Assembly: GCF_013823385.1 (NCBI RefSeq)
Contig: NZ_PNMA01000015.1
Location: forward strand, 1-64,000
Source of the DNA: Hyphomonas sp.
GTDB taxonomy: Bacteria; Pseudomonadota; Alphaproteobacteria; Caulobacterales; Hyphomonadaceae
Direction: 5' to 3'
Length of the DNA: 64,000 bases
Shown: one piece after another, positions 8,900-45,884 of the stretch
How the letters are laid out: each line of letters begins with the position of its first letter
How positions within the stretch are numbered: the stretch's first letter is position 1
Notes under the pieces: model-generated
The model's input: the letters and a program-made list of their open reading frames with translations, nothing else
Database searches by the model: none
Told to the model about the DNA's origin: nothing
Made by a program: the position numbers and the translations under genes

Positions 8900-8995
8900 C
8901 GGAATACCTCAGATTTGCGGCGGTGTAGGCGGGATTCTGAGGCAGGGCAAGCCTTTGGGGGACGTTACTTTGAGATGGGTATCTACCCATCCGGT

Positions 8996-9111
8996 CGTCA
9001 CCCTCGACGGGCTTTGCCCGTCTGAGGGCCCAGCTTCGAACGCCTTCGTGGGCGCAGCGGGTGAAGGCAGGAGATGGGCGCTCAGATGGCCTGCGGCCAT
9101 CGAGCGTGACG
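8996..9111. repeat. Family-1 two-armed palindromic repeat
   Basis: The left arm at 8996-9032 (starts CGTCACCCTCGA, ends CTGAGGGCCCA) and right arm at 9075-9111 (starts TGGGCGCTCAGA, ends CGAGCGTGACG) are inverted relatives. Each arm also folds into its own small hairpin (CGGGCtttGCCCG on the left, ATGGCctgcGGCCAT on the right). The same arm sequence occurs as the perfect 44-bp ends of the GIY-YIG cassette at 30591-31006. It lies between pyrB and the AEC transporter and contains no gene. Confidence 0.85.
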
Positions 9112-9154
9112 AAAACGAGAGAATTGGAAGACCTTTGGGCGCGCGGATTGACGG

Positions 9155-11196: not shown

Positions 11197-11289
11197 CGTC
11201 ACCCCGGAATTGCCGAAGGCAATGTCCAGGGTCCAGAATTGTGGCAGGTCTGGGTCCCGGTCTTCGCCTGCGGCGAAACCGGGATGACG
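11197..11289. repeat. Family-2 two-armed palindromic repeat
   Basis: Left arm 11197-11236 (CGTCACCCCGGAATTGCCG...) and right arm 11250-11289 (CTGGGTCCCGG...CCGGGATGACG) are inverted relatives. Each has its own hairpin (ATTGCCgaaGGCAAT on the left, TTCGCCtgcGGCGAA on the right). The same element recurs at 41083-41178 and in a minimal form at 40896-40925. It lies between the 43-aa gene and the convergent oxidoreductase gene. Confidence 0.8.
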
Positions 11290-30488: not shown

Positions 30489-30590
30489 GGTCGGCGGCCT
30501 CCGGTCACTTTCCTCCGCATAGGGACAGAGGGGAGATGAAGGGAGGGTGAATGACTATTCTTATGGAGACTGCTGTGTTTGAGGAAACGT

Positions 30591-31006
30591 CAGGAGATGG
30601 GCCCTCAGATGGCCTGCGGCCATCGAGGGTGACGAAATCTGATGGCTTAGCCGGTGATTTCAAACCACAGGTCTTTCCAGTCCGGGTTCTGCTGTTCGAT
30701 CAGATTGATCTTGTTCTGACGGCGGTAAACCTTGATTGATTTCTCGCGACGAATGGCCTCGGAGATTTCGTCATGGGTTTCAAACCAGACCAGCCGGGTG
30801 CATCCCCACTTCTTCGAGAAACCTTCAAAGATCCCCTCTCTATGCTGCCAGATCCTTTGCACGAGATTTGAGGTAACGCCTGTATAGAGCGTGCCGTTCT
30901 TGCGGTTTGCGGTGATGTAGACGGCAATAATCCGGTCTTCGTTTGCCACGCCCTCGCCCCTTCGTCACCCTCGATGGCCGCAGGCCATCTGAGGGCCCAT
31001 CTCCTG
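30591..31006. mobile_element. GIY-YIG cassette with 44-bp perfect terminal inverted repeats
   Basis: The 44 bases at 30591-30634 (CAGGAGATGGGCCCTCAGAT... to GTGACG) are the exact reverse complement of 30963-31006. Between the arms is a single gene, with 12 bp on one side (stop) and 13 bp on the other (start). Each arm contains a hairpin (ATGGCctgcGGCCAT). I found no obvious target duplication: flanks are GAGGAAACGT and CGGAACGGCC. Diverged arms occur at 8996-9111, 40175-40290 and 41010-41050. It looks like a minimal mobile or once-mobile unit; transposition is inferred. Confidence 0.7.
30647..30949 (-). CDS. GIY-YIG nuclease family protein
   Basis: A 100-aa protein that is essentially one GIY-YIG domain. 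It opens with IIAVYITANRKNGTLYTGVT (the VYI...LYTGVT pair standing for GIY...YIG). It continues with the conserved SNLVQRIWQHREG Arg/His segment, and HDEISEAIRREKSIKVYRRQ carrying the Glu metal ligand, ending LNLIEQQNPDW-like (here INLIEQQNPDW). The start is a GTG at 30949. Stand-alone versions of this group (UPF0213/COG2827-like) are uncharacterised. Because it sits tightly between 44-bp inverted repeats, it may be the enzyme that mobilises or processes them. Confidence 0.85.
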   Translation of the reverse strand: MANEDRIIAVYITANRKNGTLYTGVTSNLVQRIWQHREGIFEGFSKKWGCTRLVWFETHDEISEAIRREKSIKVYRRQNKINLIEQQNPDWKDLWFEITG

Positions 31007-31018
31007 CGGAACGGCCGA

Positions 31019-31408
31019 TCAATCCACTATCGGTTTGAAAATCTTTTGGCTAGGGTACTTAGACCTATTGTGGTGTACCCTAATGCGGCATCTGATCACT
31101 TGATCTGAAATCTCATGAGCATCGACCGGATGCTCGAATGATTGTCCGGGAAGCAGAGAACTTTTTGTGTGAGAGCTCAGTACCCACACTAAGGGTGTAT
31201 GAAACTTTGAAGGCGTCTTTTCACCTTTCAACGTCCATTCGAAATCAATATCGAATAGTTGAATTGGAGCGGTATGATCATTTCTAATTCTGATCCACTG
31301 CCTCCCGTCATGTGGGAGGCAATCAATTACTTCAATGGTACAAGGATTTTGCCGAAGCGCGGTCCAAATCCTGTAGAGCAGCGGTGCCGGATTTGGAATA
31401 TCCACCAT
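31019..31408 (-). CDS. Hypothetical protein coupled to topA
   Basis: A 129-aa protein with no recognised domain. It starts MVDIPNPAPLLYRIWTALRQ, continues with a beta-rich middle (WIRIRNDHTAPIQLFDIDFE) and ends RSKYPSQKIFKPIVD. Its ribosome-binding site AAGGAG is formed by the last codons of topA, whose stop is 4 bp upstream of the ATG, so expression is probably coupled to topA. A/T content is visibly higher than in topA, which suggests it is a recent neighbour. The GIY-YIG cassette lies just downstream. Confidence 0.6.
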   Translation of the reverse strand: MVDIPNPAPLLYRIWTALRQNPCTIEVIDCLPHDGRQWIRIRNDHTAPIQLFDIDFEWTLKGEKTPSKFHTPLVWVLSSHTKSSLLPGQSFEHPVDAHEISDQVIRCRIRVHHNRSKYPSQKIFKPIVD

Positions 31409-40155: not shown

Positions 40156-40174
40156 TTCCCACGCGCTCGCTGCT

Positions 40175-40290
40175 CGTCACCCTCGACGGGCAATGCCCGT
40201 CTGAGGGCCCATCTCCAGACCTCTCCGTTTGCGAAAGCGGAAGGGGCAGGAGATGGGCGCTCAGATGGCTTTCAGCCATCGAGCGTGACG
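40175..40290. repeat. Family-1 two-armed palindromic repeat
   Basis: Left arm 40175-40216 (CGTCACCCTCGACGGGCAAT...CATCTCC) and right arm 40249-40290 (GGAGATGGGCGCTCAGATGG...GTGACG) are inverted relatives; arms match the ends of the GIY-YIG cassette. Between them are only 32 bp with an internal hairpin (TTTGCgaaaGC...). It lies between pepA and holC, within the 222-bp gap. Confidence 0.85.
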
Positions 40291-40330
40291 ACCGATAGGT
40301 TCCTTTATCCAGTCAGGCCGCTTGCAACCC

Positions 40331-40925: not shown

Positions 40926-41009
40926 AACGGGAGGTCAGGACAAGTGAGCCGCGTAGCCGTAGGGTGGGTTGAGCGCCGCGATACCCACGAACGCAAACTC
41001 CTCCGTGGT

Positions 41010-41050
41010 CGTCACCCTCGACCGGCAAAGCCGGTCTGAGGGCCCATCTC
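41010..41050. repeat. Single family-1 repeat arm
   Basis: CGTCACCCTCGACCGGCAAA...CTGAGGGCCCATCTC matches the left arm of the family-1 elements, with its own hairpin ACCGGCaaaGCCGGT, but there is no partner right arm nearby. It directly precedes a family-2 element. Confidence 0.75.
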
Positions 41051-41082
41051 CCGCCCGCTCCAATATCGCAGCAATAGTTTGT

Positions 41083-41178
41083 CGTCATCCCGGTTTCGCC
41101 GCAGGCGAAGACCGGGACCCAGTTTCAGTCAATGCTTCTGGGCCCCGGACATTTGCTCTCGCAAATTCCGGGGTGACG
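41083..41178. repeat. Family-2 two-armed palindromic repeat
   Basis: Left arm 41083-41122 (CGTCATCCCGGTTTCGCCGC...GACCCAG) and right arm 41138-41178 (CTGGGCCCCGG...CCGGGGTGACG) are inverted relatives, and the left arm matches the right arm of 11197-11289. Each arm contains its own hairpin. Confidence 0.8.
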
Positions 41179-45800: not shown

Positions 45801-45884
45801 GCTCATCCTGAGCGAAGTCGAAGGACGAGCCGGGGCAGGGAGCAGCTCTGCTTGGCCCATCCTTCGACTTCGCTCAGGATGAGC
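45801..45884. repeat. Family-3 inverted repeat
   Basis: 45801-45825 and 45860-45884 are a perfect 25-bp inverted repeat (outer end GCTCATCCTGAGCGAAGTCG) with a 34-bp centre. This type of Asp/Glu-codon-like palindrome is frequent in alphaproteobacterial gaps. It lies between the GNAT and purN genes; a partial extra arm (TTCTACTTCGCTCAGATGAG) follows at 45885-45904. Confidence 0.85.

Follow-up and report, generated by a model that had tools for sequence, protein, structure and literature searches.

The window analysed is a stretch of 64,000 nucleotides of a Hyphomonas genome (G000), and carries at 30591-31006 one short gene set between two inverted repeats. The gene (30647-30949, minus strand; 100 codons, GTG start) encodes a GIY-YIG nuclease, the protein matching the Pfam GIY-YIG domain PF01541 (E 1.1e-13), no other Pfam domain and no NCBIfam family. 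The left arm (30591-30636, plus strand) is a REP-like hairpin with its CGTC tag toward the gene; the right arm (30961-31006, minus strand), found by inverted-repeat search, is the exact reverse complement of the left. The arms measure 46 nt each, are 100% complementary and lie 324 nt apart, a space holding the GIY-YIG gene only. A 100-codon GIY-YIG gene inside exact inverted arms had been described in a sequence-only reading of this DNA, and is confirmed by the ORF, the PF01541 match and the inverted-repeat search. The arms, read there as 44 bp, are exact as claimed but 46 nt long, and the gaps between gene and arms, given as 12-13 bp, are 10 and 11 bp.

Each arm is made up, in order, of CGTC, CCCTC-GATGGCC, the loop, GGCCATC-T-GAGGG and CCCA. 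CGTC at one end and a CCA-type tail (CGTCACCC...GGGCCCA) are the ends that define CGTC REPs. As single-stranded DNA the left arm folds into a 13-pair bulged stem with a 3-nt loop (-12.7 kcal/mol, z -3.6), in agreement with the sequence-only reading, where each arm was noted to fold on its own. Among the 28 distinct 37-nt arms collected from family loci, two of which look like chance matches, six stem pairs show changes of both partners, each pair in 7 to 13 arms. Such compensatory changes indicate that the hairpin itself is under selection. Rfam returned no match in the window at the gathering cut-off, and the arms therefore match no curated RNA family.

Residues Y11, Y22, R32, E69 and N88 of the protein are invariant in 34 homologues, and are presumably the catalytic positions of the GIY-YIG superfamily, to which domain and conserved residues both assign the protein. 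The dN/dS ratio is 0.02-0.21 where computable, dS being often saturated. Among proteins of solved structure, UPF0213 (PDB 1zg2, E 1.4e-10) and UvrC are the closest in sequence; small UPF0213 GIY-YIG proteins are similar in size and domain, and distant in sequence.

Gene-less copies and occupancy of orthologous sites

Three matches to the arm with at most 3 mismatches occur in the window, and none in 100 shuffles. Arms without the gene, previously noticed at three other places in the window, are real, and correspond to two doublets (8995-9113 and 40174-40291), each made up of two inverted arms around a spacer with tags outward, and to a single arm of the same family, found by genome-wide arm search at 41009-41051 (minus strand). 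Both doublets fold as single strands into a cloverleaf (z -4.7 for 8995-9113, z -9.5 for 40174-40291), in which the tags pair with each other, the two arms form hairpins, and the tails CCCATCTCC/GGAGATGGG make with the spacer a further stem; the predicted structure is therefore a four-way junction.

At E <= 6.1e-4 the arm is found at 50 places in the genome (4.18 Mb, 172 contigs), 40 of them paired in 20 inverted gene-less doublets, as in REPINs, two being the cassette arms and eight single; two of the eight turned out to be doublets with a weaker partner. Partners start 72-77 nt apart in 14/20 doublets and 78-123 nt apart in the others. Tags point outward in the eight doublets inspected by sequence, and in the 19 detected by a loose regular expression (a strict one detected none). 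This is the head-head order that prevails among CGTC REPs, and is opposite to that of the cassette, where tags point inward. The flanks of eight doublets differ, and the idea that the arm copies are one copy assembled repeatedly was rejected. On contigs C7, C30, C47 and C54, arms lie no more than about 210 bp from an end; these repeats apparently interrupt the assembly, and copy numbers are hence lower bounds.

The genome contains three GIY-YIG paralogues of this type, all of them flanked by REPs. Paralogue L002 is flanked by inverted arms of 43 nt that belong to another family (GTCATCCCGG...CCGGGACCCAG), the pattern of which has 26 exact matches in the genome; pattern search located elements of this second family in the window at 11250-11288 (minus strand) and 41084-41122 (plus strand). 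Paralogue L003 is flanked by doublets of a third kind.

Seven genomes were aligned at the cassette site, located on the topA side. The cassette is present in G000, G040 and G029, and missing in G034, G030, G022 and G015, that is in 4/6 relatives compared. An insertion fixed at the same site in all relatives, which the sequence-only reading had named as fatal to its proposal, is thus not what is found. Seventeen close homologues fall into 11 site groups, an upper bound because the flanks are short (1.5 kb at most), instead of sharing the single conserved site typical of homing endonucleases. Occupancy varies for gene-less doublets as well, three of the four queried having been aligned. The 8995-9113 site is filled in G022, G029 and G040 (in the last by a different arm sequence), and G015 and G030 have no insertion there, G034 having been left out since its flanks are 1019 bp apart. 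At 40174-40291, G034 and G029 carry the doublet, which is missing in G015, G030 and G040. The third doublet (C1:124577-124696) is found in G034 and G029, its site being empty in G022, G015, G030 and G040. The G022 orthologue of the 40174 doublet (L290) retains a single arm, as if the doublet had collapsed through deletion between its arms.

In both cassette and doublet alignments, 20-45 bp outside the arms are probably also part of the insert. The outer flank of the left cassette arm (30554-30590, about 37 bp) is missing in empty-site relatives, and hence probably arrived with the insertion. Putative target duplications are CTATTCT on the left and CTACTCCT on the right of the cassette, and CTAGC at the third doublet; both assignments are tentative. 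Classical IS and MITE elements have a DDE transposase and short target duplications; here the GIY-YIG gene is the only one between the arms, and CTATTCCT and CTAGC are only possible duplications. The adjacent segment 31007-31410, about 400 bp located between the cassette and topA and spanning a 129-aa ORF (31019-31408, minus strand), is missing in the cassette carriers G040 and G029 as in empty-site relatives, and is for this reason probably a separate insertion.

Repeats flanking GIY-YIG genes and the protein tree

Homologues were detected by protein search in 61/101 genomes, including G000 and its relatives. At E <= 1e-14, 121 of 124 matches were retained, the three others being partial. A mirrored repeat (score >= 34, within 300 bp of the gene) flanks 71/121 homologues, 3/3 in G000 and 68/118 in the relatives, as opposed to 0/74 ORFs of similar size and 0/893 positions (Fisher p 2e-20) in controls drawn from 19 stretches of 20 kb of the relatives' genomes only. 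Mirrored arms are missing at 50/121 homologues, and the expectation that all copies of the gene be flanked by arms is not upheld. Strictly typed REPs are found on at least one side of 127/188 homologues and at 91/893 control positions; on both sides, the strict pattern occurs at 3/893 control positions.

The best 80 of 188 loci, many from MAGs, were taken from a scan of species genomes. They derive from Alpha-, Beta-, Gamma- and Zetaproteobacteria, Patescibacteria, Elusimicrobia, Kapaibacterium, Zixiibacteriota and others. All but one (L269, too short at a contig end) could be tested, and 13 were already in the relatives set; 43 of the 66 new loci carry the mirrored repeat and 23 do not. The mirrored repeats of these loci mostly have the form GTCA-stem-loop-stem-CCA, and in other phyla the stems are compact. 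In a sample of the phylum, 23/30 loci were new, the other seven belonging to the relatives set (one of the 23, L326, duplicates the stretch of L232 from the species scan); 17/23 have the mirrored repeat, 6/23 lack it. Of five replicons chosen from 31 plasmid records, four feature the repeat (Novosphingobium pNL2, a Neisseria gonorrhoeae record, Azospirillum lipoferum, Sinorhizobium meliloti pSymB); the same test was negative for the Rhizobium tumorigenes replicon. Two N. gonorrhoeae records filed as plasmids (L351) are about 2.17 Mb long, the size of a chromosome.

The association between this gene and REPs is specific, and we regard it as close to proven. At 74 loci with REPs typed on both sides, tags are directed out/out in 41, in/in in 17, and are mixed in 16. 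At L056 and L352 the gene is flanked by two whole doublets instead of single arms, so that what moves may not always be the same unit. In L352, on an A. lipoferum 4B plasmid, the gene sits between sufB and sufC with one REP doublet on each side.

Flanking REPs were sorted by tag into GTC, GCTC, GCAG and ACTC classes, labels that derive from our own pattern, and compared with a tree of 188 proteins (121 + 80, minus the 13 in common). A label was assigned to 139/188 rows; the 49 unlabelled rows are excluded from the counts. GCAG and ACTC are the noisiest classes, and L054, L221 and L225, which look mislabelled, were retained. The tree was built by a quick method and leaves 84/185 inner branches open. 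Tags change eight times on it, as opposed to 31 times on average upon full shuffling (lowest value 27 in 300 shuffles). When labels are exchanged only between paralogues within a genome (more than one tag occurs in 13 genomes), the mean is 21.5 and the minimum 13, with 0/1000 shuffles as low as eight. Four changes are counted in the 74 rows with the same tag on both sides (shuffled mean 15.5), and four in the 124 rows bearing GTC or GCTC (16.2). One clade of 34 proteins, devoid of GTC rows, hosts 7/9 GCAG and 14/17 GCTC rows; the six ACTC rows fall in a separate clade of ten. Within the GTC group (94 rows), arm and protein similarity are correlated (Mantel r 0.45, maximum of 999 permutations 0.12), kinship being left in. 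Flanking repeats thus track the clade of the enzyme, as cognate repeats track RAYT clades. The idea of a GIY-YIG system acting on hairpin ends is supported in part: the association is strong, and the covariation of protein and tag argues for recognition of the hairpin.

Gene content and repeat number

In 398 genomes of the phylum, the gene resides in 25/41 genomes having at least three exact CGTC-1 copies and in 80/357 others (odds ratio 5.4, p 8e-7); when at least ten copies are required, in 12/17 and 93/381, respectively. Among genomes of the family, the median copy number of the arm pattern is 4 in 17 genomes carrying the near homologue (match at E <= 1e-41) and 1 in 44 genomes without it (p 3e-4).

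Five of the 17 genomes with at least ten CGTC-1 copies lack the gene (G136, 39 copies; G261, 46; G152 and G252, 15 each; G415, 10), and ten copies of the arm pattern were found in each of G034 and G003. In five of these seven genomes, GIY-YIG frames are UvrC-sized only; G003 and G415 have each one extra short GIY-YIG gene, outside the family searched. Arms in genomes without the gene, which the sequence-only reading had named as counting against its proposal, do therefore occur, G034 having ten of them and only a UvrC-sized GIY-YIG frame. G034 doublets are found at both alignable sites in common with relatives bearing the gene, and may thus be inherited remnants. Inherited remnants, loss of the gene, incomplete assemblies or another enzyme could each account for REP-rich genomes devoid of the gene. 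Some genomes, such as G002 (1), G008 (1) and G046 (0), bear the gene and almost no arm copies.

Relation to known elements and possible mechanism

CGTC REPs are a widespread superfamily, found mostly in Alphaproteobacteria, arranged as head-head dimers, and inclusive of Neisseria dRS3 and Rickettsia RPE-4/RPE-6 elements; they are said to 'apparently lack a dedicated transposase', and in that survey, which looked at transposase genes, no RAYT gene flanked by CGTC REPs is reported (Di Nocera 2013, PMC3733652). A text search of the same source did not retrieve the word GIY-YIG. The window arms are like CGTC REPs in the CGTC tag, CCA tail and order of dimers, and the flanks of homologues in other genomes are compact repeats of the same form. 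They differ in having a 13-pair bulged stem and a 3-nt loop, the stem of CGTC REPs being described in the same text as 8-9 bp long and the loop as 4-5 nt, and are termed REP-like because of the longer stem. Given this resemblance, the findings bear on the question left in 2013 (PMC3733652), and the GIY-YIG gene is a natural candidate for the dedicated enzyme of CGTC REPs. A literature search, the scope of which stopped short of preprints and most subscription journals, yielded, among the papers listed, no report linking GIY-YIG genes with REPs.

RAYT/REPIN systems are alike in several respects: one small gene flanked by cognate hairpin repeats, intergenic location, multi-copy gene-less inverted doublets, an enzyme clade matched to the repeat tag. 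The differences lie in the enzyme, there an HuH Y1 transposase and here an unrelated GIY-YIG protein, and in the tag, GTAG there, and CGTC (or GCTC, GCAG, ACTC) here. GIY-YIG enzymes hydrolyse DNA without a covalent intermediate, and the tyrosine-DNA intermediate of RAYTs is not expected. Free-standing GIY-YIG homing endonucleases also are selfish nuclease genes, REP ends, many sites and gene-less derivatives setting the present family apart from them. In Penelope-like elements a GIY-YIG endonuclease serves a mobile element alongside a reverse transcriptase; in the cassette the arms are 324 nt apart, which leaves space for the nuclease gene only.

We think it likely that the cassette is an autonomous mobile element with hairpin ends, its sole gene coding for a small GIY-YIG nuclease, comparable to RAYT/REPIN systems with an unrelated enzyme. 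We infer that the nuclease drives mobility. Gene-less pairs of inverted arms, with some 30 bp of spacer between them, would be non-autonomous, REPIN- or MITE-like copies. The enzyme would recognise the tag plus the hairpin, most likely in a single-stranded or extruded doublet, and the four-way junction formed by the doublet is a candidate substrate, of the type cut by Slx1, a GIY-YIG enzyme that cleaves such junctions. Cleavage might release a copy, or initiate copying into further intergenic sites. Since GIY-YIG enzymes hydrolyse DNA with no covalent intermediate, joining would be carried out by host repair.

Mobilisation of these REPs in trans by RAYT (HuH) transposases is scarcely credible. 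Y1-family matches were detected in several REP-rich genomes of other classes, five of them in G187, for example, and in 5/5 REP-rich genomes devoid of the GIY-YIG gene, some being fragmentary, with stops or under the cut-off. Matches to PF01797, the HuH Y1 domain of RAYTs, are missing in G000, where the enzyme encoded by the cassette matches PF01541 only, as in G029, G009, G049, G479 and G126; G040 has one, under the cut-off. The 2013 survey, as said, reports no RAYT gene with CGTC REPs at its flanks (PMC3733652). If an enzyme of another kind spread the REPs, the GIY-YIG gene might be a passenger hopping between them by homologous recombination, with no role in mobilisation. REPs lacking the gene, genes lacking mirrored arms, and whole doublets around the gene, as in L056 and in L352 of Azospirillum, fit this view. 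A passenger would not be expected to agree with its clade in REP tag, yet the agreement withstands shuffling within genomes; none of the small control genes has such flanks, and no Y1 enzyme is detected in G000. We hold this explanation to be unlikely.

Somewhat more doubtful is the view that the nuclease is a domesticated resolvase, cutting cruciforms formed by the doublets and limiting or repairing REPs with no mobilising role. It agrees with the four-way fold of two doublets, with the purifying selection acting on the gene, and with the presence of the junction resolvase Slx1 in the GIY-YIG superfamily. A controller should lower the number of REPs, which is higher where the gene is present; gene and arms moreover behave as a cassette, as judged from differing sites, empty sites and the copy between sufB and sufC. 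Homing is a classical activity of GIY-YIG nucleases, and a model of group I intron endonucleases is weakly matched by 7/34 homologues (best E 0.0015). A free-standing homing gene invading cleaved alleles, with arms that are incidental, is nonetheless very improbable: the close homologues are scattered over up to 11 site groups, a search of 50,697 phage records gave no match to the protein at E 1e-8, and homing would not account for the many sites where the same ends occur without the gene.

The reading of the cassette as a mobile element driven by its GIY-YIG nuclease could be extended, tentatively and at somewhat less than even odds, to an ancient, separate class of prokaryotic transposition. 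Its only enzyme would be a free-standing GIY-YIG nuclease, some 100 residues long, that would read the REP tag and cut the cloverleaf or four-way junction of the doublet, and the class would have given rise to CGTC, GCTC, GCAG and ACTC REPs, Neisseria dRS3 included, across many phyla. In that case unrelated enzymes, two at least, would underlie the evolution of REP-like selfish populations, and so small a nuclease, whose hairpin tag differs by clade, would be of biochemical interest. A specific gene can now be proposed for CGTC REPs, and a likely role for genes whose annotation goes no further than 'GIY-YIG nuclease family protein'. Matched pairs of gene and repeat differ in tag within one genome, which makes the question of the enzyme directly testable.

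Other inverted pairs reside in the window. One, at 566-626, is made up of 19-nt arms separated by a 23-nt loop. Another, at 45801-45884, has 31-nt arms (GCTCATCCTGAGCGAAGTCGAAGG...) that are 94% complementary, and looks like a doublet of the GCTC-tagged REP kind. Of the two short GIY-YIG genes found outside the searched family, that of G415 (L360) has no mirrored repeat. The gene of G003 (L361, 978-1202) does have one in its flanks, of the CTCATCCTGAGC type, and the link with REPs may thus extend to more distant GIY-YIG genes, through repeats of the kind seen at 45801-45884.
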